The position numbers and the translations under genes were made by a program. The notes under the pieces were generated by a model, which was not told the DNA's origin, made no database searches, and saw nothing but the letters and a program-made list of their open reading frames with translations. Positions 2,565 through 36,250 of a stretch of 36,746 nucleotides of DNA are shown here, one piece after another. This stretch comes from Bacteroidota bacterium (GTDB taxonomy: Bacteria > Bacteroidota > Bacteroidia > Flavobacteriales_E > Vicingaceae), in NCBI GenBank assembly GCA_016183805.1, contig JACPDX010000008.1, positions 1,515-38,260 of the forward strand, given 5' to 3'. Position 1 is the stretch's first letter. The number at the start of each line of letters is the position of its first letter.

Positions 2565-4667
2565 CTACTGTTTAACCACTTTTTTTATAATAACTTCATT
2601 TCCATCAGTAACCCTCACAAAATAAACACCATTGGGTTGGTTAGTTAAATCTAACAGTGTTAAGTGTTGTGTTATTGGTTGCGACACTATTTTTTGCCCT
2701 AATAAACTATAGACTTCTACCGTTGTTTTATTAGTGGATTGATAACTTACCAAAAACTGGTTCGCAAATGGGTTTGGATAAATGCTTAATAGATTTGATG
2801 GTATTGCTTCGTTTTTTACTCCAAGAATAGCACCTCCACAAGGTGTTGTGGCAAAACCATTGGCATGATAACTACGAATGGAATCTACCCGTTCTTGCAT
2901 TACCACCAAACTTGCCATGTTATCAGTTCCATTATAATCTCTACCAAAAACAAAAGCTACTTCCATTTCTACTATCGCACCAGGAAAAAATGTAAATGGA
3001 CCTGTTGAACCTATTCCCCTTCTATCTCCTGGAGGATTCCCTGCTTCAACTTCAGTCCAAGGTACTGGTGTAACAGGCACTCCTTGTGTACTCCAAAACA
3101 ATGGGTCAGAGTCACCGGGAAACAGATAATCAGCTGCTATAGTATTTCCTGTTGTAAGAGGGTTACCATCACCACCCCATGTTACCGAACCAACACTATC
3201 TAACCAATTGCCTTGTAAATAATCATAAATATCAACTCCGTTTCTTGGGTCACCGTTTCCATTAATTACAGCCCCAATATTATACGACATAAAATGACTT
3301 AATCCTAAAAATTCATTATCGAGTATTCCATCGCCAAAGCCTGTTCCTAAACCTGCGTAAGGTATTCCGTTTTGAGCTATGGCTGTTGATATATTTGTTG
3401 TAAATGGGTTATCAATACCATCATTATCTTGTTGTGCTCCTTTTAAAAAAGTTACCCCTTGAAATGGAGGTGTTGCACCATAACCAGTTACTCCATTAGC
3501 ATCTTCATCATCAATATCTGCATTGTATGCATAAAAAGTTCCTCTCGACACATCGCAACCTACGTAATCATCGTTTGAATTTCCTAAATCTAAATCAACC
3601 CATTGTCCAAAATAACAATCGGTTAGTGTATATGACGAACGATTGTACATGGTATAATCTAAAAATAAGGTGTTGTTAATGGCAGAATCTTCTGGGCAAT
3701 CGTAGGCATATACCATTCCATGAAATTCAAGGTTGTTGTTGCTGGTTTGCATCTGATTAGCCGACCGATTAGAATTACGAATAAAATAAATGGCTTGTTG
3801 TCCTTTAATTTTAGGGTAATCACCTAAAGTTGGAGTATAAATACCATCACTATTCACATCAACAAAAGGAGCTAAATCCTGAGCCTGACCCAAAGCAACA
3901 TCGCCATGTGCAGGCCAGTTGGTAATGGCTTCGGTTGTTCCATTGCCGTTGATGTGGTTTTGTATATCAATAGCACTCACTTTCCACACCCTATCCCATT
4001 GATAACTATAACTTTCGTTCACACCAATTGGCCCGGCATTTCCTGTATAATTTTGAAAAGGAATAGAAGGAGGTGGATTGTCACTAGCATAGGTCTCAGC
4101 ATAACCCTTCAATTGTCCACCATTATCAATACCCATCAACCAAAAATTTGAAGCAAAAATAGTATGTGAACCATCACCTTTTGGAACTTCAAATGCCGAA
4201 ACACTATTTGCCCTATCCATAAATAAAACCTCTTTATCTATGCTAGCATTAATGTTGTTTAAATCAATGTTTTCAAAGGCTTTTCTTTTTACATAAATGT
4301 AAATGGTTGCCGTATCATAGGCTGTTGGATTGCCATTATCTTTTAAATAGTAAGTGATACTATCTATACCAAAATAGCCTGGATTTGCGGTAAATTTAAT
4401 TTGATTAACCCTAATAGATGGTACAGGAGACATCACTACACTCACTTGATTTATACCATTATAACTTATGGTATCGATTATTTTTGTCGTTCCACTGCCA
4501 AGCGTATCATTGGCAGTTATTGTACCTCTGTTAAAAGTATATGTTATTGCAGTATCTGAGAACACTACATAAAACGTATCATTAACCGCAATGGGTAAGC
4601 TTTGTGCTTTGCTGCTATTAATCACAAATACATTTGCGATGAATAAAAGAGTGAATAATTTTTTCAT
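2565..4667 (-). CDS. T9SS-secreted protein with Ig-like N-terminal domain and type A sorting domain
   Basis: This is a 700-residue exported protein of unknown specific function. The chosen start at 4667 gives MKKLFTLLFIANVFVINSSKAQ as a normal signal peptide; the in-frame ATG at 4688 would add seven residues before it and is less likely. After the signal come about 100 residues resembling a bacterial Ig or cadherin-like Big_9 domain (NDT, GYFGIDSITYYLKDNG, ATIYIYVK). A long central region is rich in Asp, Asn, Gly and Thr and has calcium-site-like stretches such as DVNSDG. The last 75 residues (IYPNPF, VEVYSLLGQKI, LTNQPNGVYFVRV, KKVVKQ) are a typical T9SS type A C-terminal sorting domain, cleaved when the protein reaches the surface. 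It is therefore a likely substrate of the gldKLMN machine encoded 6 kb away. It stands alone, converging with metH. Confidence 0.9.
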   Translation of the reverse strand: MKKLFTLLFIANVFVINSSKAQSLPIAVNDTFYVVFSDTAITYTFNRGTITANDTLGSGTTKIIDTISYNGINQVSVVMSPVPSIRVNQIKFTANPGYFGIDSITYYLKDNGNPTAYDTATIYIYVKRKAFENIDLNNINASIDKEVLFMDRANSVSAFEVPKGDGSHTIFASNFWLMGIDNGGQLKGYAETYASDNPPPSIPFQNYTGNAGPIGVNESYSYQWDRVWKVSAIDIQNHINGNGTTEAITNWPAHGDVALGQAQDLAPFVDVNSDGIYTPTLGDYPKIKGQQAIYFIRNSNRSANQMQTSNNNLEFHGMVYAYDCPEDSAINNTLFLDYTMYNRSSYTLTDCYFGQWVDLDLGNSNDDYVGCDVSRGTFYAYNADIDDEDANGVTGYGATPPFQGVTFLKGAQQDNDGIDNPFTTNISTAIAQNGIPYAGLGTGFGDGILDNEFLGLSHFMSYNIGAVINGNGDPRNGVDIYDYLQGNWLDSVGSVTWGGDGNPLTTGNTIAADYLFPGDSDPLFWSTQGVPVTPVPWTEVEAGNPPGDRRGIGSTGPFTFFPGAIVEMEVAFVFGRDYNGTDNMASLVVMQERVDSIRSYHANGFATTPCGGAILGVKNEAIPSNLLSIYPNPFANQFLVSYQSTNKTTVEVYSLLGQKIVSQPITQHLTLLDLTNQPNGVYFVRVTDGNEVIIKKVVKQ

Positions 4668-4750
4668 GGATGCTGTTTTTAATTTCAACTAATTTTACGC
4701 TAAGGTAACTATAAAGTTAAAGCCATCTTTGCAATGGTTCATTTATCCTA

Positions 4751-8793: not shown

Positions 8794-9363
8794 TTATTCT
8801 TTGCCTAAATGCTCATCCACCAATTCTAGTTCTTTAAACCAATCCTCTCCAAACCTTCTAATTAAAGGTTCTTTTAAAAATTGATAGGTTTTTACCCCTA
8901 ATTCTTCTCCTAAAGCACAAGCATCACCACATATTTCAATTTGTTCGTAATTTACAGCTATAAACGATTTAAAATGTTTTAATCGTACTGGAAAAAGATG
9001 GCAACTAATCGGTTTCTTAAAAGAAATATCTCCATCTAAATATGCTTGTTCAATAGAGCATTTCGCAATGTTTTTTTCATCAAAAAAAACAAAAGCACAT
9101 TCCTTTCCTTTTACCAATTGAGTAACCATATCACCATCCGAATCAATGGTGTATAAATCTTCTTCTAAAGCTTCAATCGATTGTTTCGATAAATACTTTT
9201 TTACATAAGGAAAAGCATTCTCTAATTCTTCTAATTCGTCATCTTCTAAAGGTGCACCTGCGTCACCCTCAATACAACAAGCCCCTTTACAAGCATTCAA
9301 ATTGCAAACAAATTTTCTTTCTAATAGCAGCTCTGAAATTACGGTATCCTGAATTTGAATCAT
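8794..9363 (-). CDS. DUF3109 family cysteine-rich protein
   Basis: This is a soluble 189-residue protein of the uncharacterised DUF3109 family, at its normal length. It has a conserved set of cysteines: CNLNACKGACC (about 20-30), C in GKECAF, C in AKCSIEQ, C in SCHLFPVR, and CGDAC near the C-terminus. The pattern resembles YkgJ-type proteins thought to hold a metal or Fe-S cluster; that function is inference from the residues, not established. It starts one base after the stop of the threonine aldolase gene on the same strand, so the two are almost certainly co-transcribed and perhaps translationally coupled. No signal peptide is present. Confidence 0.9.
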   Translation of the reverse strand: MIQIQDTVISELLLERKFVCNLNACKGACCIEGDAGAPLEDDELEELENAFPYVKKYLSKQSIEALEEDLYTIDSDGDMVTQLVKGKECAFVFFDEKNIAKCSIEQAYLDGDISFKKPISCHLFPVRLKHFKSFIAVNYEQIEICGDACALGEELGVKTYQFLKEPLIRRFGEDWFKELELVDEHLGKE

Positions 9364-9364
9364 G

Positions 9365-10387
9365 TTAAAAATTTATTTTTTTTACTATCTCAATCGTTCT
9401 GTTTATCATTTCGTCATTCACATCCAAATGAGTAACAAATCGTATTTGTTGTGAACCAAAAGCTGCAACTTTAATTTGGTTTTTTTCTAATGTATGAATA
9501 ACATGGTTTACATCCAAATGAGGCAAAATCTCTATAATTAGTATGTTGGTATAAACAGGAAAAACCTCTTTTACCCATTTGAGTTTACACAATTCATCTG
9601 CCAATAGTTTTGCCCGGTGGTGATCCTCTTTTAATCGGTTAATATTGTTTTCTAATGCATAAATACCTGCTGCGGCTAAATACCCTGCTTGTCTCATTCC
9701 TCCTCCCAATATTTTTCTGATTCGTTTGGCTTTTTTAATATCTTCATTAGAACCTATTAATAAAGACCCCACCGGAGCTCCCAACCCTTTTGATAAACAA
9801 ACCGAGATGGTATCAAATTGATCTCCAATTTCTTGGGACGTATAATTTGATTCAACAATAGCGTTAAAAATTCGTGCTCCATCTAAATGTAACTTTAGCA
9901 ATTTATCTTTACATAAGTTATTAATTTTTTTAATCTCTTCGAAATCGTAAATACTACCGCCACCTTTGTTACAGGTATTTTCCAAACAAACTAATTGAGT
10001 TGGTGGGAAATGAATATCATCAGGGTTTATTGCAGCACCAATCAATTCGGCAGTTAATCTGCCTTTATTACCTTTTAACAATTTGGTTGCTAAACCTGAG
10101 TTAAAACCTATTCCTCCTCCTTCATATTTGTAAACATGAGCTAATTCATCACAAATAAGTTCTCCGGGTGAATTGGTATGAATTTTAATGGCAATTTGGT
10201 TTGCCATTGTTCCTGAAGGACAAAATAAGGCAGCTTCCTTAGTAAAAAGTTTTGCCGCCATATCCTGTAATTTATTTACAGTCGGGTCATCTCCAAAAAC
10301 ATCGTCACCTACAACAGCAGCCATCATTGCCTCTTTCATCTCTGTTGAAGGCTTAGTTACTGTATCACTTCTAAAATCAATATACAT
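9365..10387 (-). CDS. ltaE: Low-specificity L-threonine aldolase
   Basis: This PLP enzyme (fold type I) splits L-threonine or L-allo-threonine into glycine and acetaldehyde in the cytoplasm. The N-terminus IDFRSDTVTKPSTEM and the block VGDDVFGDDPTVNKL are diagnostic, followed by FCPSGTMANQIA. The PLP lysine is Lys200 in CLSKGLGAPVGS; LHLDGARIFNA supplies the aspartate that contacts the PLP ring nitrogen. The 340-residue length is normal and no residue looks damaged. It is the first gene of a two-gene unit with the DUF3109 gene. The start at 10387 is preceded by A/T-rich sequence. A distinction between threonine and allo-threonine preference cannot be made from sequence. Confidence 0.94.
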   Translation of the reverse strand: MYIDFRSDTVTKPSTEMKEAMMAAVVGDDVFGDDPTVNKLQDMAAKLFTKEAALFCPSGTMANQIAIKIHTNSPGELICDELAHVYKYEGGGIGFNSGLATKLLKGNKGRLTAELIGAAINPDDIHFPPTQLVCLENTCNKGGGSIYDFEEIKKINNLCKDKLLKLHLDGARIFNAIVESNYTSQEIGDQFDTISVCLSKGLGAPVGSLLIGSNEDIKKAKRIRKILGGGMRQAGYLAAAGIYALENNINRLKEDHHRAKLLADELCKLKWVKEVFPVYTNILIIEILPHLDVNHVIHTLEKNQIKVAAFGSQQIRFVTHLDVNDEMINRTIEIVKKINF

Positions 10388-10470
10388 AAGATAAAAAATA
10401 TAAGTCCAAAGTTCGTGAATAAAAGGAGAAGAAAATAAAAATATTTGTTAACTTCGTAACCTCAATTAAA

Positions 10471-10541
10471 GGTCGCGTGGCCGAGTGGCTAGGCAGAGCT
10501 CTGCAAAAGCTTCTACGGCGGTTCGAATCCGTCCGCGACCT
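10471..10541 (+). tRNA. tRNA-Cys (anticodon GCA)
   Basis: A complete cloverleaf is visible. The acceptor GGTCGCG pairs with CGCGACC; the D stem is GCC/GGC; the anticodon stem GAGCT pairs with AGCTT and holds loop CTGCAAA with GCA at 10503-10505; the T stem GGCGG/CCGTC holds TTCGAAT. The discriminator base is U, as cysteine tRNAs require. CCA is not encoded. It is single, not part of a tRNA cluster. Confidence 0.97.
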
Positions 10542-10542
10542 C

Positions 10543-10579
10543 AAAAAAAAACCTCCGTCAAACGACAGAGGTTTTTTTT
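10543..10579. terminator. Bidirectional terminator between tRNA-Cys and gldN
   Basis: A run of nine A (10543-10551), the stem CCTC-C-GTC, loop AAAC, GAC-A-GAGG, then eight T (10572-10579). The stem has one C-A mismatch. It serves the tRNA on the plus strand and, read from the other side, the end of the gldKLMN operon. Confidence 0.88.
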
Positions 10580-10593
10580 ATATAATTATTTTT

Positions 10594-11433
10594 TTAGAAA
10601 TTCCACATGTCGTGTTCTAAATTAAACATGTCTTCCTTGATGTTGTCTGATTCCAAGATTAAATCTAATCCTCTTAAATAGTCCTTATTGTTTCGATCAT
10701 AAACATTTGAACGTTTAGTAATATAACTATTAAACATTCTTTTCCAAAAAACATCATCATACGTTCTTTTTTCGGCATCGTTCTGACGGTTAAACACATC
10801 ATAATTAGCAAAAACATATCGAGCTTCAGGGAAATAAATCCAGAACAATACTTGTTTACCTTTAGATTCACCGGTATTTAAATCAATAACATTTAAAGCA
10901 GGAGCTAGTCCAATAATTCTAACATCCATTATAGATCGTTCTCTATCAAAAAACCAATCTTCTTTAACTCTATATTCAACAACATCAATAGAACCATATT
11001 CTTCATAAGTAGAATCGGCAGCACCAATAATTTCCTCACCAAAATCATCATATTGCTTTGTTTCCTTATAGCGACCCATTTTTGCTTTTGCTTCTGCTTT
11101 TGTTAATTGAACTGTAAATTCATCATCAGCATCACTATAAGCAGTAATGGTTCCTTCTAAAATACCTTCTTTCATCACATCGAACAAACTCTTTCTATCT
11201 TGAATTGGAGTAATTGGATAATACAAAGGGTGGTTGATTTTTTCACGTAAATCAATTGTTCTCCATATTCTTCTATGCCACATTACATCAGCTTCTCTTA
11301 CATGAGTATAAGGGATAACTCTACGTGTGGGAGTATTTTCTTTAATCCACGGTTTATCTAACACTTTATTTTGGGCAATTAACGAAACGCTAAAAAACAC
11401 CAAAATACATACATAAATTAATTTACGGTTCAT
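10594..11433 (-). CDS. gldN: Gliding motility / type IX secretion protein GldN
   Basis: GldN (PorN) is a periplasmic partner of the GldK lipoprotein; together they form the ring under the outer membrane in the T9SS. The 279-residue protein begins with a signal peptide (MNRKLIYVCILVFFSVSLIAQ). It continues with family blocks: READVMWHRRIWRTIDLREKIN, PLYYP, DRKSLFDVMKEGI, VRIIGLAP, KQVLFWIYFPEARYVFANYDVFN and MFNSYITKRSNVYDR. It is the last gene of the operon, 27 bases after gldM. A strong Shine-Dalgarno AAGGAGGT sits 4 bases before the start, which fixes the start at 11433. The operon ends at the hairpin shared with tRNA-Cys. Confidence 0.95.
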   Translation of the reverse strand: MNRKLIYVCILVFFSVSLIAQNKVLDKPWIKENTPTRRVIPYTHVREADVMWHRRIWRTIDLREKINHPLYYPITPIQDRKSLFDVMKEGILEGTITAYSDADDEFTVQLTKAEAKAKMGRYKETKQYDDFGEEIIGAADSTYEEYGSIDVVEYRVKEDWFFDRERSIMDVRIIGLAPALNVIDLNTGESKGKQVLFWIYFPEARYVFANYDVFNRQNDAEKRTYDDVFWKRMFNSYITKRSNVYDRNNKDYLRGLDLILESDNIKEDMFNLEHDMWNF

Positions 11434-11437
11434 AGAA

Positions 11438-11445
11438 ACCTCCTT
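11438..11445 (-). promoter_or_regulatory. Strong Shine-Dalgarno of gldN
   Basis: AAGGAGGT, read on the minus strand, is a near-perfect anti-16S match 4 bases from the gldN ATG. Most genes in this window have no such site, as expected for Bacteroidota. Confidence 0.7.
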
Positions 11446-11460
11446 TCTTTGTAAAAATTA

Positions 11461-13125
11461 TTAAATAATCTTAATATTTATGTTAGCCAAAGTACGTGTA
11501 GTGCCATCGGGCATTTTAACACTCATTTTTTCAACATAAAATCGTTGTCCACGAGAAGCTTTACCAATCAACGCTCTAGCCGCGTCATTCATTCTGCTTC
11601 CTGTAACTTTAGCATCTTTATAATCACCTGAAACAGTAGTTCCAATCTCAAATGAGCTTACTTGTACTTTTAAATCAAATTCAAAACCTTCCATTTTAGC
11701 TTGGATTACGCCACTTGCTAAATCACTTTTTGTCATAGTACATGAACCAGTTTTGCCAGCAATATAAGGTACTGGATCAGGAATTTTTTTAACTCTAAAT
11801 TCTGATTTACCTAAATTCACTGTTTTTCCATTATCGTCGGTACCGGAAACATTTATGGTAACTTTTCCAATAGCAGTTGGTCGCATAACGTATTGTCCAG
11901 CACCCGAACCTTGTCGTAAACCTGGTGCAGAAGCTTTAGCATTAGGCATTGGTGCAGAAACCGATACTGGATTATCAATACCCATGTAAAACACATTCAT
12001 AGCCGATGCAGCAACTGTTGTAGAAGGCTTACCTACTTCAAAAGAACTACTAAAAGGGTAAATTTTTGGTCCTTTTTTGGTTTTCACCTTAATAATTCCA
12101 CCCCAATCATGAATACCTACACCTTCTCTAATTTTTAAATACCCTTTACCGGCCTCAACATCTTTTAATTGATACCAACCGCCATTTTTAGTGGCATCCC
12201 ATCCTTCACCTTTCTGGCCTTTCATAATTTTATTTTCATCTGTTTCGGTAAGTGCAGCTACGCTATCATATGCACCAATAAAAATCTCTGGGTTATCCAA
12301 ATCGTTGTAAGCAGCAGTAAAAATTTGAGCAGCAAAAGAATCACCATCCATTACATACGCTTTTTTAGCATAGGCAAAACCATCCACTTTACTAAATGAA
12401 ACACCTGCAGCATCAATATTTTCATATAATTTAGCAACAGCCTCTGCTTCAGCACTTCTAACATCCGATTGGATTTTAGATAGAATGGTAATTACAGCAG
12501 CCAAAGGAACATGGTAAAAATTAGCCTCTTCCCAAGTTTTATCATCACTGGTTCCCGGTTTAGGGTCAGGAGTTTCTAAAACAGCTAACGATTTTTTCAT
12601 CAAATCTTGTGCTTCTTTATTTTCTTTAAATAAATCTAATAAATCGGCTTGATATTTATTGATTTTTTTTCTTAAATCAACAGCTGTCCATTCGCCATCT
12701 TTTGGAGTAGCCGGTTCAGCTAATCCCATTGTTAATGTTGGTAAATCATAATTATCTTTACTTTGTACATTAGAGATTTTGTACAAAGAATCATGTGAAC
12801 CTTCCGGAGTTTTATCAACAACTGTAATCAAATGATGTTTTAATTTTTTAATATAATCATAAAGATCATCAGTCATTTTTTTAACATTGTCTGCTTTTGC
12901 TTTAAATGGTTTTGCTGTTTCGCTATCAACAGCAGCGGCAGCAAATTTTGTATAATATATACTAGTTTTATCAGCAAAAGTCGATGTTGAATTCTCGATA
13001 CCATCGTTTACAACGATAAATGCATCAAGAATATCTTTAGAAACGTTCATTGCTAAAAGGGCAGTTAATACAAGGTACATCATACCAATCATCTTCTGCC
13101 GCGGTGGTAACTTACCTCCAGCCAT
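11461..13125 (-). CDS. gldM: Gliding motility / type IX secretion motor protein GldM
   Basis: GldM (PorM) is the inner-membrane rotor-shaft protein that spans the periplasm and, with GldL, turns proton flow into motion for T9SS secretion and gliding. The N-terminus MAGGKLPPRQKMIGMMYLVLTALLAMNVS contains the single membrane helix and Arg9, which is known to be important in the GldL-GldM channel. The remaining 520 residues form the four periplasmic domains, with the C-terminal part VPYIAGKTGSCTMTKSDL and FEFDLKVQVSSFEIG typical of the family. Length 554 is slightly above the usual 510-530. It sits between gldL (38 bases upstream) and gldN. Confidence 0.95.
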   Translation of the reverse strand: MAGGKLPPRQKMIGMMYLVLTALLAMNVSKDILDAFIVVNDGIENSTSTFADKTSIYYTKFAAAAVDSETAKPFKAKADNVKKMTDDLYDYIKKLKHHLITVVDKTPEGSHDSLYKISNVQSKDNYDLPTLTMGLAEPATPKDGEWTAVDLRKKINKYQADLLDLFKENKEAQDLMKKSLAVLETPDPKPGTSDDKTWEEANFYHVPLAAVITILSKIQSDVRSAEAEAVAKLYENIDAAGVSFSKVDGFAYAKKAYVMDGDSFAAQIFTAAYNDLDNPEIFIGAYDSVAALTETDENKIMKGQKGEGWDATKNGGWYQLKDVEAGKGYLKIREGVGIHDWGGIIKVKTKKGPKIYPFSSSFEVGKPSTTVAASAMNVFYMGIDNPVSVSAPMPNAKASAPGLRQGSGAGQYVMRPTAIGKVTINVSGTDDNGKTVNLGKSEFRVKKIPDPVPYIAGKTGSCTMTKSDLASGVIQAKMEGFEFDLKVQVSSFEIGTTVSGDYKDAKVTGSRMNDAARALIGKASRGQRFYVEKMSVKMPDGTTRTLANINIKII

Positions 13126-13163: not shown

Positions 13164-13967
13164 TTAAGCTTTAACTGTCATTGCGGTTAACATATTGCCA
13201 TAAACAGTATTTAATTTAGCTAAATTAACTGATAACTCAGAAATATTTTCTTTATATCGTTTAGTATCTTCAACTGAATCAGTCAAATTAGTCATCAATG
13301 CATTAATACCATTATACATTGTCGTCATTGTTTGAGCTTGTTGTTGAGACCCTGTTAGTTGAGCTTCATAAGACCTGTTCAATGCCTCTAAAGTCGAAGC
13401 CATTTTTTGCATTTCTTGTCCAGTTGAAGCACCAGAATCAGCAGCAGTAGAAAGAGTTGCCAAAGCTCTTGATGCCTCAGTATAAGAATCAGCTAATTCA
13501 CTTACTTTACCTGAAGCTGTTTTTAAACTATTGGTATAATCATTGGTTGCAACAGAAGCATCAGAAATTTCTGATAATTTATTGGCATTGTCACCAAGTT
13601 TTCTTAACCCTACACCTAAACTTTCAATCAATTCAGGTCCAATTTTAGCTTCAGCTAACATGTCATCTAATTGCTCAGTTACTGGTTTATTAGAAATTGC
13701 AGCACCATGACCATGATCTTCATCCATACCTGCTAATTCAGGATAAACTAAAGTCCAATCTAAATCCATGTGTGCAGGCTCAAATGCTGATACGGCAAAA
13801 ATAATTGCTTCAGTACTTAAACCAATTACAAGCATTGGACCAGCACCAGGCCAGTGCATAATTTTAAACATTGCTCCTACAATTACAACGGCAGCCCCCA
13901 TACCGTAAAGGAGTCCCATGATTGTTTTTCCTTTTTTTGTTTCAAATAAAAATTCTACAAATCCCAT
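13164..13967 (-). CDS. gldL: Gliding motility / type IX secretion motor protein GldL
   Basis: GldL (PorL) is the inner-membrane stator-like part of the T9SS motor. Two membrane helices are seen: residues about 16-34 (IMGLLYGMGAAVVIVGAMF) and about 44-62 (PMLVIGLSTEAIIFAVSAF). Glu53 in the second helix corresponds to the conserved glutamate thought to carry protons. The hallmark KIMHWPGA lies between them. The C-terminal 190 residues are a predicted helical, coiled-coil-like cytoplasmic tail rich in Ala, Ser and Thr (NKLSEISDASVATNDY, LEALNRSYEAQL). The gene is 51 bases after gldK and 38 before gldM. Confidence 0.95.
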   Translation of the reverse strand: MGFVEFLFETKKGKTIMGLLYGMGAAVVIVGAMFKIMHWPGAGPMLVIGLSTEAIIFAVSAFEPAHMDLDWTLVYPELAGMDEDHGHGAAISNKPVTEQLDDMLAEAKIGPELIESLGVGLRKLGDNANKLSEISDASVATNDYTNSLKTASGKVSELADSYTEASRALATLSTAADSGASTGQEMQKMASTLEALNRSYEAQLTGSQQQAQTMTTMYNGINALMTNLTDSVEDTKRYKENISELSVNLAKLNTVYGNMLTAMTVKA

Positions 13968-14018: not shown

Positions 14019-15320
14019 TTAAATATTATCATCTTTTGCACGTCCCAAATAAGTCATCACACATCTGAATCCAATATAACATTTAGCAGTATCTTGGTAT
14101 TCGTAAGTTCTGGTTGAAGTTTGTAAATAGTACCCAACATCTTTCCAAGAACCTCCTCTGATAACTTTTCTTTTTAAAGAAGGAGGGTCATTTTCATTAG
14201 CATCATAGGTATAATCAGGATTCAAATCATGAGCAAAATTATATGCCGATTCATCAAATGCATTACTTGTCCATTCTGCTACATTACCAGCCATGCAATA
14301 TAAACCATAATCATTAGGATTATATGAGTTTATTTTTACAGTATGAAAACCACCATCATCAATATAATTACCACGCATTGGTTTAAAGTTTCCTAAGAAA
14401 CAACCTCTACTGTTTCTGATGTAAGGACCTCCCCATGGGTAAGGACTTAAATCTAACCCACCTCTTGCAGCCCATTCCCATTCTGATTCTGTTGGTAATC
14501 TGAAATCATTAACAATGATACCACCGTTTTCAATTAAGAAACTCTCTAATAATTGGGTTCTCCAGATACAAAATGCTGTTGCCTGTTTCCAAGAAACGCC
14601 TACAACCGGATAGTCATCATAAGCCGGATGCCAAAAATAATTTTTAGTCATTGGCTCATTAAAAGAGTAAGTAAAATCATGTATCCAAGCTAAAGTATCA
14701 GGATAAACGTTAATAACATCCTTCATGATAAATTTCGATCTATCCATACTAAATGGATGATCTTCAGAATCTCTACTTTCTCTTAATGCAGCTCTTTTAT
14801 AATCAATCCAATAATAATCATACATTAATTTTCTGGTATCTAATTCTCTTCTATTATAAAATCTTTCAGAAGGGATATAAAATAATGGTTCTAAAGCTTC
14901 TCTAGATTCTGGCTCATCCCATTTTAATTTTGCATACCAGTTTAATGCTGGAGGATCAATTTCTTCTCCAAATTCGTTTTCTGAGATAGAAAATTCTTCC
15001 TCATCAACTTCTTCAGCCATTATTCTTCGAGCGAGAGAGTCTCTTACCCAAAAAACAAACTGACGATATTCGTTGTTAGAAATTTCGGTCTGATCCATGT
15101 AGAACGCTTGAACAGAAACTGTTCTGGATTGTGCCGTTACAGCATAAGGAACATCCTGATCTGAAGGTCCCATATTATAACTACCCATTGGAATAAACAA
15201 CATTCCGAAAGGATCAGGTTGATACCATTCCTCTCTGCCTTGTACTCCAATTAACTCACCGTTTCCTTTGCTACAAGCATAAAGAACAGCAATTGTTATT
15301 AAAATTAATATTCGTTTCAT
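14019..15320 (-). CDS. gldK: Gliding motility / type IX secretion lipoprotein GldK
   Basis: GldK (PorK) is an outer-membrane lipoprotein forming the periplasmic T9SS ring with GldN. The signal peptide ends in the lipobox LYAC with Cys16 as the lipidated residue. The rest is a formylglycine-generating-enzyme (sulfatase-modifying factor) fold: FIPMGSYNMG, VSVQAFYMDQTEISNNEYRQFV, YPVVGVSWKQATAFCIWR, DFRLPTESEWEWAARGG, YPWGG, MAGNVAEWTSNAF, VIRGGSWKD, YIGFRC. As known for this family, it is structural and not expected to be an active FGE. The start at 15320 is supported by a strong Shine-Dalgarno three bases before it. It follows porP after a 110-base gap. Confidence 0.96.
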   Translation of the reverse strand: MKRILILITIAVLYACSKGNGELIGVQGREEWYQPDPFGMLFIPMGSYNMGPSDQDVPYAVTAQSRTVSVQAFYMDQTEISNNEYRQFVFWVRDSLARRIMAEEVDEEEFSISENEFGEEIDPPALNWYAKLKWDEPESREALEPLFYIPSERFYNRRELDTRKLMYDYYWIDYKRAALRESRDSEDHPFSMDRSKFIMKDVINVYPDTLAWIHDFTYSFNEPMTKNYFWHPAYDDYPVVGVSWKQATAFCIWRTQLLESFLIENGGIIVNDFRLPTESEWEWAARGGLDLSPYPWGGPYIRNSRGCFLGNFKPMRGNYIDDGGFHTVKINSYNPNDYGLYCMAGNVAEWTSNAFDESAYNFAHDLNPDYTYDANENDPPSLKRKVIRGGSWKDVGYYLQTSTRTYEYQDTAKCYIGFRCVMTYLGRAKDDNI

Positions 15321-15430: not shown

Positions 15431-16384
15431 TTATAAAAATCTTACTGAGTGATATACTTCTCTTTTTGGTGGTTTAGTAATATTTGTACAATATTTAATC
15501 ATAAACTCCAAGCTACCATTACTATAATCGCTTAATGTAGAAGTTGTGATGTCATAAGAAACTCCTACTTTTAAACCCGGTAATTGAGGTATGTTTACCC
15601 CGGCCAAAACAGCAATTGCATCTTCAATTCTGTATGAAACGCCTCCCCATACTAAATTATTGTACATTAATAACGCATTTATATCTAATTGAGTAGAAGC
15701 GGCGTCAGTTTTAGCTAAAATAGATGGTTTAACTACCCATTTTTTATCTTGTCTAATATCCCAATCGTAACCTGCCATAATATAATAGTGACGAGATTGT
15801 GCAAAATTTAAAGCACCTTCGCCGGAACTACCATTCGCAACATCTTTTAATTCTGAAGCTGTTAAATGTAAGGTAGAAATACCTACATACATTTTATTTG
15901 GTATGTTATAATACAAGCCTATGCCTAAGTCAAAAGTACTGGCTGAAGTTCCCGCATTAGGTATTGATGGATCAAGAGTTGGATCATCAACAGCAATAAA
16001 ATCCGATCCAAAAGATTTACTTAACATACCTGCATCTATACCGATACCTAAAGAACCAGGTCCTAAAGTTAAATGGTACGAATATGCTAATTTAGCTACC
16101 AACGAACTTTCAATTCCTAATTTATCTTGGAAAACAGTTAACCCAACACCATGTTTACTAAAAATCAAAGCATCAGTACTAAATAAATGTGTTTGAGGAT
16201 GACCATCGAAGCCAGTCCATTGAGTTCTACTTAACAAGGTAAAGCAAATTCCGCCGTTAGAACCAGCGTAACCAGGATTAACTGAAAGTTTATTAAACAT
16301 ATTTTGGGTAAACTGTGCATCTTGTTGAGCATGAAGACCAGCTCCGACAATGATTAATGAGATAGAAAGGATAAGTTTCTTCAT
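15431..16384 (-). CDS. porP: PorP/SprF family type IX secretion outer-membrane protein
   Basis: This 317-residue outer-membrane beta-barrel protein belongs to the PorP/SprF family. The signal peptide (MKKLILSISLIIVGAGLHAQ) is followed by the family start QDAQFTQNMFNKLSVNPGYAGSNGGI and by LSRTQWTGFDGHPQTHLFS. Alternating hydrophobic strands run to the C-terminus, which ends in FMIKYCTN and SVRFL. In Porphyromonas gingivalis porP precedes porK-porL-porM-porN, and the same order is seen here, so I use porP rather than sprF. It is the first gene of the T9SS operon, with a consensus-like promoter 55-85 bases upstream. Confidence 0.92.
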   Translation of the reverse strand: MKKLILSISLIIVGAGLHAQQDAQFTQNMFNKLSVNPGYAGSNGGICFTLLSRTQWTGFDGHPQTHLFSTDALIFSKHGVGLTVFQDKLGIESSLVAKLAYSYHLTLGPGSLGIGIDAGMLSKSFGSDFIAVDDPTLDPSIPNAGTSASTFDLGIGLYYNIPNKMYVGISTLHLTASELKDVANGSSGEGALNFAQSRHYYIMAGYDWDIRQDKKWVVKPSILAKTDAASTQLDINALLMYNNLVWGGVSYRIEDAIAVLAGVNIPQLPGLKVGVSYDITTSTLSDYSNGSLEFMIKYCTNITKPPKREVYHSVRFL

Positions 16385-16515: not shown

Positions 16516-17679
16516 TCAGGCTAATTTTTGAAACGTTTGCCACCATCTATCGGGCATTTCATCTTCACAAGCCGTTTGGTAATCTTTATAAGAGCAAGGC
16601 ACTAATAAATGTCTTTCATATTTAATTTTCCGGTGTGATGGGTATGGAACATCCATCCACCAACGTTCGCTCTTATCACTTTTATAAAAAATCAATTCGT
16701 TTTCACCATTCTGAATGTTTACTCTATATTTAGTATAAGGTTTCCTTGAGCCTACAGGAAAGTCTTTTTTTCTATTGTTTATTCCGTCTAAAAAGTACCA
16801 AATCATTTGGGCGACCAGATGGGCTGTTTGTCCATTTTGGTCAAATTCAGGATTAACTTCATAGAAACCTACTGATGTTAGTTTATCGCTTAAGCCTGCA
16901 TATCTCGCAATCTGACAAGCTTGTTCGCCATAAAAGCCATTTGGAGATGCATTGGCGTTTCCAGGAGATTCTGATTGCCGGATAGCAGAAACATCAAATG
17001 AAAGAATATCGGCATTACGAACAATAGGCTCTACATCTTCAATGTTTTTTTGCACCTGACCTAATCGATAGACATCAAAAAACAATTTATTCATCAATTC
17101 TATCTCAGATTTATCTACGAAATATGATTGATATCCTATGTTACTATAGTTGAATAAAAAATTAGGCTGATGTAAAATAATTTTTGTTAAAAAGTTATTA
17201 GAACTTATTTCGGAATCTGGTTCTCCTAAATCAAAATTTGAATCGATGGCGACTAAATTGACGGTTTGTTCTAAATTTTTATATGCTAAAAAGTTTGCAT
17301 AAGTCAAATCCTGACCTCCTCCTATAATAATAGGAATAATTTCCAATTTAATTAATTCCTCTAATATTGAACTCAAAGCAAAATACGTATCATTTAATGA
17401 TGCCCCAATTTTTAGGTTACCGAAATCTATAATTTTAGAGGCTTCCCCTAATTTATTTAGTTTATACAAGTATTTTCGGACGTAATTAGGTGATTGTGAT
17501 GTTCCTGCATTTGAACTACTCCCGCGATGTTCTCCAACTCCAATAACTGCAACATTAAATTCTTTTAAATCCTGATTGTCGTAAAAAGATATGGCATTCA
17601 CAAAACTATTTCCGGAATATGGATGACTTAAACCACCTTGATTTAAATTTACAGGCTCAAAAAATTCAGAAAAATTCAT
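16516..17679 (-). CDS. Arginase-fold (formimidoylglutamase-like) protein with degenerate metal site
   Basis: The 387-residue protein has the ureohydrolase fold but not its usual active site. Arginases bind two Mn ions with GGDHS, DAHxD and SxDxDxxDP. Here the matching places read GGGQDLTYAN (His replaced by Gln), AIDSNFDLG (His replaced by Asn) and LSFDVSAIRQSE (second Asp replaced by Ser). From memory, close relatives with the same substitutions occur widely in Bacteroidota beside topA and gldK and are usually annotated formimidoylglutamase, a name the residues do not support. A conserved C-terminal extension ends WWMDVPYP, LVPCSYKDYQTAC and EMPDRWWQTFQKLA. There is no signal peptide. It lies 26 bases after topA on the same strand and just upstream of the T9SS promoter. 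Function unknown; a non-catalytic or altered role is inference. Confidence 0.88.
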   Translation of the reverse strand: MNFSEFFEPVNLNQGGLSHPYSGNSFVNAISFYDNQDLKEFNVAVIGVGEHRGSSSNAGTSQSPNYVRKYLYKLNKLGEASKIIDFGNLKIGASLNDTYFALSSILEELIKLEIIPIIIGGGQDLTYANFLAYKNLEQTVNLVAIDSNFDLGEPDSEISSNNFLTKIILHQPNFLFNYSNIGYQSYFVDKSEIELMNKLFFDVYRLGQVQKNIEDVEPIVRNADILSFDVSAIRQSESPGNANASPNGFYGEQACQIARYAGLSDKLTSVGFYEVNPEFDQNGQTAHLVAQMIWYFLDGINNRKKDFPVGSRKPYTKYRVNIQNGENELIFYKSDKSERWWMDVPYPSHRKIKYERHLLVPCSYKDYQTACEDEMPDRWWQTFQKLA

Positions 17680-17705: not shown

Positions 17706-20177
17706 CTATTTTTTCTTTGTTTTTTTAACAGCACTTTTTTCTGCCAAAACTTTTTTTGCATCTTCCAATGAAAAGTTAATCGCATCAACATCTTTTGGCA
17801 GTTCAATTTTTACTTTGCCTTTCACTAAATTAAATCTACCCCACCTCGCTTTTTGAAGAGATATTCCTTCTTCTTCCCAGTTATGGATATATTTTTCTAC
17901 TTCTTTTTTCTTTTTATCTTCAATCAATTCGGCAATATCTTTAGAGCTTAACTTATCAAAGTTATATTTTCTGTTTACATTAATAAACATATTGTTCCAT
18001 TTAATAAATGGACCGAATTTTCCAACTCCTTTTTGTACCGGTAAATTTTCGTAAGAATCAATTGGTGCATCAGCTTGTTGTTTTTCGCTAATTAATTCTA
18101 AGGCTCTTTTCAAGTCAACAGTTCCAATGTCTTCATTTTTTGGAATAGACACGAAAAGCTTATCCAATTTTATGTATGGACCAAACTTACCAACTGCAAC
18201 AACCACCTCAACTCCCTGATGTGTTCCAAGAGTTTTAGGAAATTTAAATAAATCAAGTGCCTGATTTAATGTTATATTTTCTATAGTCTGACCAGGTTGG
18301 AGACTGGCAAATTTTGGTTTTTCTTCATCATCGGCTTTTCCAATCTGAACCATTGCACCAAATTTACCTATTCGTACAATCACTTCCTTTTTCGAAACAG
18401 GATCAACTCCCAACACGCGTTCACCTGATGCTCTTTCGGCATGTTGCATAGTGTTTTCAATACTTTTATGGAATGGATTGTAAAACTCTTCAATCATTTT
18501 GTTCCATTTTTTCTGACCCTCAGCAATCTCATCAAATTGCTCTTCAACTTTGGCTGTGAAACCATAATCCATTACTTTATTGAAATTCTCTACCAGAAAA
18601 TCAGTAACAATTACACCGATATCAGAAGGAAACATTTTCTTTTTTTCGGTTCCGTAAATCTCTGTTTTGGTTTGAGCCGAAACCTGCTTGTTTTTCAAGG
18701 TTAAAACAGCATAACTACGTTCTTTTCCATCCCTATCTTCTTTAACCACATAACCACGTTTAACAATAGTTGTAATTGTAGGGGCGTAAGTAGAAGGTCT
18801 TCCTATCCCAAGTTCTTCCAATTTCCTGACTAAACTAGCTTCAGTATATCGAGGTGGATTCAAAGTAAAACGTTCTGAAGCAACAATATCGTTTAGTTGA
18901 AGTTTTTCTCCTTGTTTTAATGGCGGCAAGATGGTTTCATCATCTTCTAAATTCTCATCATCATTTGATTCCATGTATAATTTTAGAAATCCATCAAAAA
19001 TCAACACTTCACCTTTTGCAACAAATTTTTCTTTATTTGTCGTTATATTAATATTTACCGTGGTTTTTTCAAGTTTAGCCTCGCTCATTTGAGAAGCCAC
19101 TGCCCTTTTCCAAATTAATTCATAAAGCCGAACTTGTGAAGGATCGCCGGAAATGGAATGAGCATCCATGTATGTCGGACGAATTGCCTCATGAGCCTCT
19201 TGAGCACCTTTTGATTTGGTAGTAAATTTTCTCACTTGAGAATATTCTTCACCATAAGCACTGATAATTTCTTTTTTGGCTGCTCCAATAGCTTCATTTG
19301 ATAAGTTAACGGAATCGGTTCTCATGTAGGTGATTTTTCCCGATTCGTATAATTTTTGAGCAACTGTCATGGTTTGTAACACCGAAAAACCTAGCTTTCT
19401 TCCGGCTTCTTGTTGTAGTGTAGATGTAGTAAAAGGTGGTGCTGGAGATTTTTTAGTAGGTTTGGTTTCCAATCCTTCTATAATATACTCAGCAGCTACA
19501 CAACTATTTAAAAAATCTTCGGCTTCTTTTTTTGTCGAAAACCGTTTGGGTAACTCAGCTCTTAAAGAAACATTGCCGCCAACAATAAAATTAGCCACCA
19601 CTTTAAATGCTGATTGACTCGTAAAATTTTGTATTTCTCGTTCTCTTTCTACAATTAAACGGACTGAAACCGATTGAACCCGACCTGCAGATAACGATGG
19701 TTTTACTTTTTTCCATAAAACGGGAGAAAGTTCATACCCCACTAATCGGTCTAAAATACGACGAGCTTGTTGAGCATCAACTAAATTTCTATCTATTTTT
19801 CTTGGATTTTCTACTGCTTTGGTAATGGCGTTTTTAGTAATTTCATGAAAAACAATCCGTTTTGTCTTTTTTTCATCTAACCCAAGAGCCTCTAACAAAT
19901 GCCAAGATATGGCCTCCCCCTCTCTATCTTCATCGGAAGCCAACCAAACGGTTTCTGCTTCTTTTGCTAATTTTTTTAATTCTGATACTAATTTCTTTTT
20001 ATCGTTTGGAATAACGTATTGAGGTTCAAATCCTTTTTCAATATCAACAGATAAGTTTTTTCCGTCTAAATCTCTGATATGTCCAAAGCTGGATTTCACC
20101 AAAAAATCTTTACCTAAAAACTTTTCAATGGTTTTTGCCTTAGCAGGAGATTCAACAATTACTAAATTTTTTACCAT
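17706..20177 (-). CDS. topA: DNA topoisomerase I (type IA)
   Basis: TopA relaxes negatively supercoiled DNA through a 5'-phosphotyrosine intermediate. The start at 20177 is chosen because MVKNLVIVESPAKAKTIEKF is the family's first segment; an in-frame ATG at 20201 would add eight residues. The Toprim domain has the VESPAKAKT glutamate and the DEDREGE acidic motif (about 86-92). The active-site tyrosine is Tyr284 in ITYMRTDS. Other markers are LSAGRVQSV and GIGRPSTYAPTI. Instead of the E. coli Cys4 zinc fingers, the C-terminus carries Topo_C repeats (RIGKFGAMVQIG, AVGKFGPYIKLD, GVGKFGPFIKWN), normal in this phylum. The tail is Lys-rich (KKTKKK). It probably forms a transcript with the arginase-like gene that follows. 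Confidence 0.96.
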   Translation of the reverse strand: MVKNLVIVESPAKAKTIEKFLGKDFLVKSSFGHIRDLDGKNLSVDIEKGFEPQYVIPNDKKKLVSELKKLAKEAETVWLASDEDREGEAISWHLLEALGLDEKKTKRIVFHEITKNAITKAVENPRKIDRNLVDAQQARRILDRLVGYELSPVLWKKVKPSLSAGRVQSVSVRLIVEREREIQNFTSQSAFKVVANFIVGGNVSLRAELPKRFSTKKEAEDFLNSCVAAEYIIEGLETKPTKKSPAPPFTTSTLQQEAGRKLGFSVLQTMTVAQKLYESGKITYMRTDSVNLSNEAIGAAKKEIISAYGEEYSQVRKFTTKSKGAQEAHEAIRPTYMDAHSISGDPSQVRLYELIWKRAVASQMSEAKLEKTTVNINITTNKEKFVAKGEVLIFDGFLKLYMESNDDENLEDDETILPPLKQGEKLQLNDIVASERFTLNPPRYTEASLVRKLEELGIGRPSTYAPTITTIVKRGYVVKEDRDGKERSYAVLTLKNKQVSAQTKTEIYGTEKKKMFPSDIGVIVTDFLVENFNKVMDYGFTAKVEEQFDEIAEGQKKWNKMIEEFYNPFHKSIENTMQHAERASGERVLGVDPVSKKEVIVRIGKFGAMVQIGKADDEEKPKFASLQPGQTIENITLNQALDLFKFPKTLGTHQGVEVVVAVGKFGPYIKLDKLFVSIPKNEDIGTVDLKRALELISEKQQADAPIDSYENLPVQKGVGKFGPFIKWNNMFINVNRKYNFDKLSSKDIAELIEDKKKKEVEKYIHNWEEEGISLQKARWGRFNLVKGKVKIELPKDVDAINFSLEDAKKVLAEKSAVKKTKKK

Positions 20178-20354
20178 ATTAAAAATAGGTTTAACGTTCA
20201 AAGTTTAAGGTTTGAAGTTTTTAAAATATTCTGCAAAGAAATAAAATAAAATACTGGATTTCCAAATTATTGAGACCAGATTAATGAATTATATGTATAA
20301 ATCGGGGTTTTTAAACGCTTTTGTTAAAATATGACAACATAATAACAATGTCAT

Positions 20355-20409: not shown

Positions 20410-21003
20410 ATGGAAGAAACCAACAAAATTATTGACGAATCGATACAAGGTAGTGCAACTTTAATTGAGCCTAAATCAACCGAAGGAAAAAAATTATATA
20501 TAGAAAGTTATGGTTGTCAAATGAATTTTTCTGATAGCGAAATAGTTGCCTCCATATTAAGTAACAATGGTTTTAATACTACCAAAAATATTGAAGAAGC
20601 TGATGTTGTTTTTGTTAATACCTGCTCTATTCGGGAAAAAGCTGAACTAACTGTTAGAAACCGATTAAAATCTTTTACCAAATACAAAAAACAAAAACCT
20701 GAAATGATTATTGGTGTTTTAGGCTGTATGGCGGAGCGGGTGAAATCTCAATTACTTGATGAAGAAAAATTAGTTGACATTGTTGTTGGTCCTGATGCGT
20801 ATAGAGATTTACCTAATCTTATTAATCAAGCTGAGGATGGAAGAAAAGCTGTGAATGTGCTGTTGTCGAAAGAAGAAACATACGCCGACATTAGCCCTGT
20901 AAGACTGTTGAGTAATGGTGTTACCGCTTTTATATCAATAACCAGAGGTTGTGATAACATGTGCACGTTTTGTGTGGTTCCATTTACCAAGTTACTCTTT
21001 TAG
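20410..21003 (+). pseudogene. miaB: tRNA methylthiotransferase MiaB, N-terminal part (gene broken by internal deletion)
   Basis: MiaB adds the 2-methylthio group to isopentenyl-A37 of tRNAs that read UNN codons, using two 4Fe-4S clusters. This frame carries the N-terminal methylthiotransferase domain with its three cysteines ([24 protein letters not shown]) and the radical-SAM triad CDNMCTFC. It then runs VVPFT and goes out of frame (KLLF, stop at 21003). The family continues from VVPFT with an RGRERSR block and about 20 more residues before VTLLGQN. Here VTLLGQN follows after only two bases, in another frame. Assuming the usual 26 intervening residues, about 76 nt are missing between 20988 and 20991. 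Restoring them would give a normal protein of about 481 residues. As it stands the product lacks most of the radical-SAM barrel and the TRAM domain. Confidence 0.85.
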
Positions 21004-21779
21004 GCCAAAATGTTGATTCGTACTTGTGGTATGGGCAGGAAGGATTAAAAAAGGAATACGATAACTTATCTGATGAAGAAAAGTCGAAATGTGTAAACTT
21101 TGCTCAATTGATGGAGCAAGTTGCATTGATAAGCCCTGATTTGAGGGTACGTTTTTCTACTTCACACCCCAAAGACATTACCGATGAATTTTTATTTATG
21201 ATGGCAAAATACGACAATATCTGTAACTACATTCATTTGCCATTTCAAAGCGGAAACTCTCGAATTCTGGAATTAATGAATAGGGGTTACACTTCAGAGT
21301 GGTATAAACAACGAATTGATGCTATTAAAAGAATAGTTCCTGAGGTAGCTCTTTCGGCTGATGTTATTGCCGGATTTTGCTCTGAAACAGAAGAAGAACA
21401 TCAGGATACTTTATCTATGATGGAATATGTTAAATTTGATTATGCTTATATGTTTTCTTATTCGGAACGCCCAAATACTTTGGCTCAACGTAAGTTAAAA
21501 GACGATGTACCTGAAGATGTGAAGAAAAGAAGATTGGCAGAAATTATTGCACTACAAAACAAATATTCGCTGGAAAGAAATAAAGGATATGTTGGAAAAA
21601 CCTTTCAGGTATTAGTAGAAGGTTTTTCAAAAAAATCAAAAAACGATTTACAAGGAAGAACACCTCAAAATACGGTAGCAGTATTTCCAAAAGAACATTA
21701 TAAAGTAGGTGATTATGTAAGTGTTTACATACACCGCTGCACTGGTGGAACATTGATTGGGGAAGCGGTTAATAATTAG
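20961..21779 (+). pseudogene. miaB: tRNA methylthiotransferase MiaB, C-terminal part (out of frame)
   Basis: This is the rest of the interrupted miaB. Genuine MiaB sequence starts at about 20991 with [15 protein letters not shown] and contains [59 protein letters not shown], and the C-terminal TRAM domain ([15 protein letters not shown] ... [20 protein letters not shown]). The first ten residues of the open frame ([10 protein letters not shown]) are out-of-frame reading of the upstream part, not a real start. No ribosome-binding signal is seen, so separate translation is unlikely. The stop at 21779 is followed by a short direct repeat (TTAGAAATT at 21776-21784 and 21790-21798) and, 69 bases on, the sigma-54 activator gene. 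Confidence 0.85.
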
Positions 21780-33773: not shown

Positions 33774-34833
33774 TTAGAACAACTGAATACTTTTTTTCTC
33801 AGAGTGTTTCTCTCCATCTTCACCAATTGCAACTACCACAATGTAATAGGTTCCTTTCGGCAATATTTGGTTGTTTAAATCTCTTCCATCCCAAAAGCCT
33901 TCTAACGATTTCCATTCAAAAACAAGATTTCCTTTAGCATCTCTAACAACAGCTGTAAATTCTTTAATGTTTTCACCATCAATTTTAACAACATCGTTAA
34001 TTCCGTCACCATTTGGAGAGAAAACCGTTGGAACTGTGGCTAGTGAAGATGTTATATTGTTTTCTACCGTAATTACTTGCATTACAGTTTTTGCATTGGC
34101 ATTTTTATCTATGGCAGTTAATTTAACCACATATTTCCCCGGTGTAGAAAATGTATGGAAACTATTTTCCTGACTTGTGATTTCTGAACCATCGCCAAAA
34201 TCCCAAGAATAAGCAACTCCATTACCTTCAACATTAAATTCAACATCGAGTGGAGCTTTACCCCGAACAGTATTGGTTTTAATTTTAACCGTTAAATTAG
34301 CTTGTTCAACAATCGTTTTTTCGGTATTTTTTGATTTTTCCGGAGCATTTTGTTGAACTGTTTGAGTGCTATTTTGTTGGGTTGAAGCAGATTTTTCAAC
34401 CGTTTTATTATCAACTATCGTTGTTTCTTCATTAATACTGTTTTTTACTGTTTTTTCTTTGATATCTTTCTGTTCCGTTACCATTTCGGTTGAAGCAGAA
34501 ACGATGGTTTGTTCATTATTTTTTGTTTGAACTGATGATGAAGAACTAATTGCACCAGCTTTTGCATCATCTTCAACTACTCTATTTTGTAAAAGTGTAG
34601 TTGCATCTTCAACTATCGAATTATTAATTTCTTGTGTTGAATCATCCACTATTAAGTAATAAGTGGCGGTTGCCAATCCTGTAAAAATGGCTGCTCCGGC
34701 AATAAATTTAGCTAAAATTGCTTTTGATGCAGAAGTGGCTGCTGATGAAACCGAATCCTTAGGTGCGACTCCGTTTCCAGCTCCAATGTTGCTTTGAACA
34801 TTGATTTTCTATATTGTTTAAATCTTTTTTCAC
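33774..34833 (-). pseudogene. Membrane-anchored PKD / CHU_C protein coupled to ECF sigma; N-terminus broken by deletion
   Basis: The open frame (33774 to 34808) encodes one membrane helix (about 34647-34721, AILAKFIAGAAIFTGLATATYYLIV), a Ser/Thr/Gln-rich linker, a PKD domain (GNGVAYSWDFGDGSEI, GKYVVKLTAIDKNANAKTVMQVI), and a C-terminal CHU_C-type domain (TVFSPNGDGINDVVKI, WDGRDLNNQILPKGTYYIVVVA). It has no good start in frame; TTG at 34676 is inside the helix. In another frame a GTG at 34833, two bases after the sigma-factor stop, reads MKKDLNNIEN, a plausible family N-terminus, then breaks at about 34801-34806, where the other frame picks up NVQSNIGAGN. I infer a single gene that lost a short segment. 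The cytoplasmic N-terminus may have been an anti-sigma-like part. Confidence 0.72.
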
Positions 34834-35662: not shown

Positions 35663-36250
35663 ATGTCAAAATTATACATCGTACCTACTCCTATCGGTAA
35701 TTTAAACGATATTACGTTGAGGGCGTTACAAGTTTTAAAGGATGTGGATTACATTTTAGCAGAAGACACCCGCCAAACCTCAAAATTGTTAAACCATTTT
35801 GAAATTGAAAAAAAATTAGTGTCGTATCACCAGCACAACGAACACAAAAGCATAGACCGAATTATTGAAGACTTAAAACAAGATAAAACCATTGCCGTGG
35901 TAAGCGATGCAGGAACTCCCGGGATTTCCGACCCCGGTTTTTTAATTGTTCGGGCATGTATTCAAAACGAGATTGGGGTAGAGTGGTTGCCCGGAGGACA
36001 AACCCGATTAAACCTATTAAAAGAAGAGACCAGAACCATTGTTTTTTACGAATCGACCCATCGATTATTAAAAACGTTAACTCAATTTGCCGAGTTTTTT
36101 GGTGAAGACAGACGCGTTTCTGTTTCGCGTGAGTTAACCAAAATGCACGAAGAAAACATTAGAGGAACGGTTAAAGAAGTAATGGAATACTACAAAACCC
36201 ATGTAATAAAAGGCGAAATTGTTATCATTGTTCATGGGAATGAGAAATAG
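35663..36250 (+). CDS. rsmI: 16S rRNA 2'-O-ribose C1402 methyltransferase RsmI with internal deletion
   Basis: RsmI methylates the ribose of C1402 in 16S rRNA with S-adenosylmethionine. The N-terminus KLYIVPTPIGNLNDITLRAL, LAEDTRQTSKLL, SYHQHNEH and VSDAGTPGISDPG are perfect family blocks. After VEWLPG, however, the protein jumps to GQTRLNLLKEETRTIVFYESTHRLLKTL. The usual LPGATAFVPALV ... FEGFLP ... GR segment, about 29 residues and part of the SAM-binding core, is missing. The reading frame is kept, so the protein is 195 residues instead of about 224. The gap lies at 35993-35998, equal to about 87 nt. The protein as encoded is unlikely to be active. The end (SRELTKMHEE, KGEIVIIVHGNEK) is normal. 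Confidence 0.9.
   Translation: MSKLYIVPTPIGNLNDITLRALQVLKDVDYILAEDTRQTSKLLNHFEIEKKLVSYHQHNEHKSIDRIIEDLKQDKTIAVVSDAGTPGISDPGFLIVRACIQNEIGVEWLPGGQTRLNLLKEETRTIVFYESTHRLLKTLTQFAEFFGEDRRVSVSRELTKMHEENIRGTVKEVMEYYKTHVIKGEIVIIVHGNEK

Follow-up and report, generated by a model that had tools for sequence, protein, structure and literature searches.

What does a protein with the arginase fold and a degenerate metal site do between a topoisomerase gene and the genes of the T9SS? The question is raised by a gene at 16516..17679 on the minus strand of the window, by which we mean the whole 36,746-nucleotide stretch of DNA that was analysed. The gene has an ATG start and encodes 387 amino acids. Directly upstream, across a gap of 26 bases, lies topA, which encodes a type I DNA topoisomerase (17706..20201). 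Downstream follow a gene for a PorP/SprF-family T9SS membrane protein (15431..16384), gldK (14019..15320), gldL (13164..13967), gldM (11461..13125) and gldN (10594..11433). All of these genes are on the minus strand, and the first-pass annotation was right to place the gene beside topA and the T9SS genes.

Membership in the arginase superfamily was clear from both score and fold. The Pfam Arginase profile (PF00491) matched residues 42-296 with 88.1 bits, against a gathering cut-off of 22. Ligand positions were assigned by alignment to the Bacillus subtilis HutG (3m1r) and a Trypanosoma cruzi formiminoglutamase (4mxr). We assumed the ligand numbering and the split between MnA and MnB of rat arginase I, and we take H126 and D234 to be the ligands specific to the second metal (MnB). 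The three altered motifs read from the DNA letters were found exactly as described, all on the minus strand. GGGQD (residues 120-124, 17308..17322) occupies the canonical GGDHS region, with Q123 at the position of H101. DSNFD (residues 146-150, 17230..17244) stands for DAHxD, keeping D146 (D124) and D150 (D128) and carrying N148 in place of the His ligand, H126. SFDVS (residues 227-231, 16987..17001) stands for SxDxD, keeping D229 (D232) and carrying S231 in place of the second Asp ligand, D234. Three of the six ligands are thus changed and three are kept, so that the claim that most Mn ligands are gone was overstated, although H126 and D234 are indeed lost and the binuclear Mn site is incomplete. 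The substrate-side glutamate E277 is kept, as E274.

The three substitutions do not carry the same weight. As judged from the sequence, N148 and S231 are strong signs of inactivity, because they take away both of the MnB-specific ligands. Q123, unlike these two, is a weak sign, since both solved enzymes, 3m1r and 4mxr, carry Asn at the H101 position and the title of the 4mxr structure reports two bound Mn ions.

The rest of the protein is well preserved, as had been suggested. An AlphaFold model of the window protein, built with 65 aligned sequences, had a pLDDT of 92.3 and a pTM of 0.93. It matched the T. cruzi formiminoglutamase variant 4myn with a Z of 37.4 (rmsd 2.0 over 278 residues), T. 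cruzi 4mxr with a Z of 37.3 and B. subtilis HutG 3m1r with a Z of 35.6 (rmsd 2.1 over 285 residues). The matches to 4myn and 3m1r cover residues 13-305. A crude hydropathy scan of the protein found no hydrophobic N-terminus, signal or membrane segment.

What follows the fold is a C-terminal extension (residues 306-387, 16519..16764, minus strand) that lies outside the Pfam Arginase match. The long conserved extension that had been proposed was borne out by its many near-invariant positions across 81 members, among them F331, W340, W341, C362, Y367 and P376. Pfam gave only scattered matches on the extension, in 1 to 3 of 57 members. A known domain was considered as its source and rejected, the profile search returning only chance-level SH3-type matches (best E 0.035). 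Modelled alone, the C-terminal 83 residues gave a moderate model (pLDDT 78.6, pTM 0.67), for which Foldseek found no match at E <= 0.001 and VIA-align no confident match (best Z 4.4). Given the moderate quality of this isolated model, and since failure to find a match is no proof, the extension is not put forward as a new fold.

To place the window protein among its relatives, 81 extension-bearing members were aligned with 25 hand-chosen arginase-family relatives without the extension, two of which came from the window's own genome. The members comprised the window protein, 60 loci chosen from homologue searches and 20 further ones, with near-identical rows kept. Six rows that were fragments, duplicates or unrelated (L233, L236, L238, L242, L244 and L246) were dropped before alignment. 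The alignment upheld the idea of a conserved group with degenerate ligands. H126 was kept in 6/81 extension-bearing members versus 25/25 relatives, and D234 in 4/81 versus 25/25; no member (0/81) had both. E277 was kept in 38/81 members versus 25/25 relatives. The relatives did not vary at H126, D234 or E277; elsewhere in the site, four had Asn at H101, one had Asn at D128 and three had Cys at D232.

Other positions changed in the opposite direction. The H126 and D234 columns, which had the lowest entropy in the relatives, rose to the 84th and 72nd percentile among the members, whereas E217 and W294 went from the 83rd and 77th percentile in the relatives to the lowest entropy in the family. 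The family-specific residues E217 and R221 lie in EPIVR (residues 217-221, 17017..17031, minus strand). The set of family residues comprised E217 and W294 (both 81/81), W340 (80/81), R221, C362 and Y367 (79/81 each) and R205 (78/81). The ligand loss in the family goes beyond chance. In a 62-row maximum likelihood tree that held 37 of the 81 members together with all 25 relatives, obtained by a quick search with no bootstrap and with several long branches flagged, the members formed one side of a branch with an SH-aLRT support of 100. The same split of the 37 members was recovered with the motif columns left out. Between the window gene and its nearest relative dN was 0.09 while dS was saturated (> 2), and the gene is therefore under purifying selection.

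Because the second-metal ligands are lost and the old site is eroded, while the fold is retained and new near-invariant residues have appeared, we consider the protein to be, most probably, an ancient and class-wide pseudoenzyme of the arginase fold, akin to the formimidoylglutamase/agmatinase-like proteins of the superfamily. A kept fold, degenerate ligands and purifying selection were all observed. The same features point to a binding role, and it is probably a binding or regulatory protein.

Some members could instead have kept half of the site for a new chemistry. The MnA half-site (D146, D150 and D229, together with Q123 or a His) would then bind one metal, and the protein would be a mononuclear-metal enzyme. 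D124 is kept in 65/81 members, D128 in 51/81 and D232 in 64/81, and the D124 and D232 columns, at the 13th and 12th entropy percentile in the family, are the best conserved of the old site. All three Asp are present in 49/81 members, including the window protein; of these 49, 48 have His, Asn or Gln at H101, and 12 of them His. However, at least one of the three Asp is missing from 32/81 members, and some diverged members, such as L224 (TSRLP), L227 (SARTH) and L112 (TGHT-), have lost most of the site yet keep the extension together with E217 and W294. In a family that is otherwise constrained, partial erosion of a catalytic site would not be expected unless the members concerned had taken on another function, and we regard a mononuclear enzyme as quite unlikely. 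A further observation speaks against the pseudoenzyme reading: the nearest relative, L053, is 86% identical to the window protein and reads DSHFN where the latter reads DSNFD, so that it has His at H126 and Asn at D128. The old metal site thus turns over even within the genus. With all three Asp kept in 49 of the 81 members, sequence does not decide between a pseudoenzyme and a new enzyme.

The database label of formimidoylglutamase (HutG) can be judged more firmly. HutG (TIGR01227) was the best NCBIfam match of the window protein and the model was matched by 28/28 aligned members; the retained E277 also agrees with a working enzyme of this kind. However, the window protein scored 95.8 bits against a curated cut-off of 229.15, and the family has lost H126 and D234. 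Genomes G036 and G042 each have a separate hutG above the cut-off (298.5 and 293.9 bits) within a hutH-hutI-hutU-hutG cluster, while their extension-bearing gene is located away from that cluster. In the window genome hutU and the arginase-fold gene are on different contigs (C75 and C88), and in two further genomes (G103 and G111) a second arginase-family match was found within 3 kb of hutU.

Absence of the histidine pathway was considered as a further argument and refuted. Urocanase (hutU) was found in 70/77 genomes searched, the window's own included, which speaks for the HutG label, and pathway absence therefore cannot be used against it. The hutU matches fell into two classes, one with frames of ~552-621 aa (E 1e-255 or lower) and one with frames of ~664-751 aa (E ~1e-117 to 1e-136).

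The window protein is almost certainly not HutG, and it is highly improbable that it works as a formimidoylglutamase. HutG (TIGR01227; 3m1r, 4mxr) remains the closest fold and the best family model, and in the first motif it likewise lacks the His, having Asn where the window protein has Gln. The window family differs from it in the missing H126 and D234 ligands, in the added C-terminal part, in a score far below the cut-off and in gene positions outside those hut clusters that were examined. The warning that the label is misleading was therefore justified: the best database name is that of an enzyme which the protein almost certainly is not, and it would mislead metabolic models of Bacteroidota.

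The gene is retained nearly universally in its class. A first search found it in 41/41 genomes (the window's own and 40 relatives). In a sample of 336 genomes of the class Bacteroidia it was present in 316, membership being read from the score for most genomes. This count is the 317 profile matches minus G550, a relative without the extension, and includes two fragments at contig ends (G394, C-terminal only; G437, N-terminal only). Among the weakest class matches that were inspected, G369 and G396 were strongly diverged but had the extension. Of the matches listed for a sample of 296 genomes of the phylum, those from other classes ran no further than about position 322 of the 389-position profile and left most of the extension uncovered. 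In the single-contig genome G366 the homologue (C1:921214-922374, minus strand) was broken into three matching segments, of which the central one lay in a different frame and contained stops, a break caused by frameshifts or sequencing errors.

This distribution bears on the proposed link with secretion. The protein could serve the T9SS or gliding as a dedicated factor, perhaps by partnering the GldL/GldM motor from the cytoplasm, a role that overlaps with the pseudoenzyme reading. GldL was found in 328/336 class genomes at E <= 0.001 (326 over the cut-off), whereas the genomes of other classes in the phylum sample all lacked GldL over the cut-off. Among the matches listed for the gene, none from another class extended into the C-terminal extension. 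At E <= 0.001, GldL and the gene occurred together in 314 class genomes and were both absent from 6, with GldL alone in 14 and the gene alone in 2, an association with a Fisher p of 5e-7 that ignores phylogeny. In favour of a link, the draft genome G420 (family f92) lacked both, and G369 and G396 of the same family had both.

However, secretion did not hold up as a necessary link. The 14 GldL-positive genomes without the gene (of 328) are spread over families f26, f27, f67, f96, f105, f111 and f114, and GldM was present in 13/13 of those checked, among them genomes of f26, f67, f96, f105 and f114. The protein is therefore not a T9SS core component, as it is missing from genomes that have the GldL/GldM motor. 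Conversely, the gene was present while GldL and GldM were not found in G503 (f18, 99% complete) and in G367 (f16, a 95%-complete draft). In f27 the gene was missing from 6/6 sampled genomes, of which three had GldL and three did not, and the association is therefore largely one of lineage. Two of the six genomes with neither were very small (0.5 and 1.2 Mb). The distribution does not call for a role in the T9SS, and such a role, that of a dedicated factor included, is possible but doubtful. A gliding link through GldB was also tried and did not discriminate: GldB was found in 18/20 gene-negative genomes, in a search of 80 genomes of which 75 matched at E <= 0.001 and 48 over the cut-off.

Gene order gave a similarly mixed picture. 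Neighbours were counted at 57 of the 60 loci of a first set and at 51 of 80 named loci (the best 80 of 583) with enough flanking sequence, and were sought by blastp with the window proteins, so that diverged topA or gldK may have been missed. At 29/57 and 33/51 loci, topA lay no more than 1.5 kb upstream and on the same strand, and at 28/57 and 17/51 gldK lay no more than 3 kb downstream. Both were present at 27/57 and 17/51, and neither at 27/57 and 18/51. The expectation that relatives occupy the same position was met in part only: adjacency to topA and, less often, to T9SS genes is common but not general, and the many loci with neither also count against a dedicated T9SS factor. In favour of such a factor, the order topA-gene-porP-gldKLMN recurred in the window genus and in several families, and family f21 had topA-gene-gldK. 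The arrangement topA-gene-gldK was also seen in Tenacibaculum and Polaribacter, while several Bacteroidales MAGs had only topA beside the gene, and Pedobacter and Mucilaginibacter had neither. Since 44/45 loci with gldK downstream also had topA upstream, topA is found beside the gene more widely than gldK is. By their position topA and the T9SS motor genes are candidates for a partner, and the neighbourhood requires neither.

Outside the topA/T9SS context, a selection of neighbours was scanned at 11 loci (L082, L095, L099, L110, L130, L146, L152, L161, L173, L186 and L191). No conserved neighbour emerged from these, as only L146 and L161 agreed. At both, the gene was followed by a ResA/TlpA-like thiol-disulfide oxidoreductase (L146:9231-10415 in Pedobacter and L161:9198-10427 in Mucilaginibacter, both on the plus strand). 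At L186, from one Bacteroidia MAG, the next gene (9177-11525, plus strand) encoded a protein that resembles agmatine deiminase and carries a T9SS sorting tail. The remaining scanned loci showed an ECF sigma factor, RNase H, an FkbM methyltransferase, PheS, a GFO/IDH oxidoreductase, others, or no match.

As a pseudoenzyme, the protein could have arisen and could work as follows. The arginase fold has lost the MnB ligands, H126 and D234; E277 is gone as well from roughly half of the members, the window protein not being one of them. Because of these losses, the binuclear Mn mechanism would no longer be expected to hydrolyse guanidino or formimino compounds. Selection has instead fixed new residues on the core of the fold (R205, E217, R221 and W294) and in the C-terminal addition, some 80 residues long (W340, W341, C362 and Y367). 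The likely mode of action is binding, of a protein partner or a small ligand, by a surface that core and extension would form in contact with each other. The outcome would be structural or regulatory and, going by the crude hydropathy scan, presumably cytoplasmic. The fixed residues and the added part are direct targets for mutants. In a bolder version, which we put forward tentatively and consider rather unlikely, a metabolic enzyme fold that was disarmed early and gained a new C-terminal domain would have taken up a place in the cytoplasm as regulator or assembly partner, either of the T9SS rotary motor or of a process coupling that motor to topoisomerase or to the state of growth, and most of Bacteroidia would still depend on it.

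Pseudoenzymes of the arginase fold are already known. One is the arginase-like protein of T. brucei, which we take to be TbARG. PMC11271267 cites the T. brucei protein in describing arginase proteins without the binuclear centre in eukaryotes and prokaryotes. On that account it resembles the window protein in having evolved on the arginase fold with no binuclear Mn cluster; it differs as a eukaryotic case, whereas the window family is bacterial, spans a class and has gained a domain. The same paper presents MetCb as the metal-free pseudo-subunit of metformin hydrolase (cf. 8ryi, 8x3g, 8snf). MetCb is likewise an arginase-family pseudoenzyme, whose job, as described there, is to bind a partner, and metformin hydrolase chains were among the fold and profile matches of the window protein. 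The difference is that MetCb partners an active paralogue from its own cluster, whereas no second Arginase-family protein was found among the 30 of 35 listed window ORFs that were scanned. The window's own genome has two canonical arginase-family paralogues, on other contigs. No paper on this family, gene or locus was found in the literature searched, which is weak evidence of absence as subscription journals were thinly covered; two T9SS reviews named only a neighbouring locus tag.

Several other features of the window were recorded. Two proteins encoded at 2565..4688 and 33774..34676, both on the minus strand, carry T9SS C-terminal signals (Por_Secre_tail; CHU_C with PKD domains). A tetrapyrrole methylase-type ORF at 35663..36250 (plus strand) covered only positions 1-116 of the 212 in the Pfam profile and is possibly truncated or frameshifted. 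On the same strand, miaB (20410..21779) was split into two overlapping ORFs in different frames, with the UPF0004 part at 20410..21003 and the radical SAM and TRAM part at 20961..21779. It formed one open frame of 480-507 aa in 4/5 relatives examined, and none was found in the available stretch of the fifth. The split miaB is thus a frameshift or a sequencing error.
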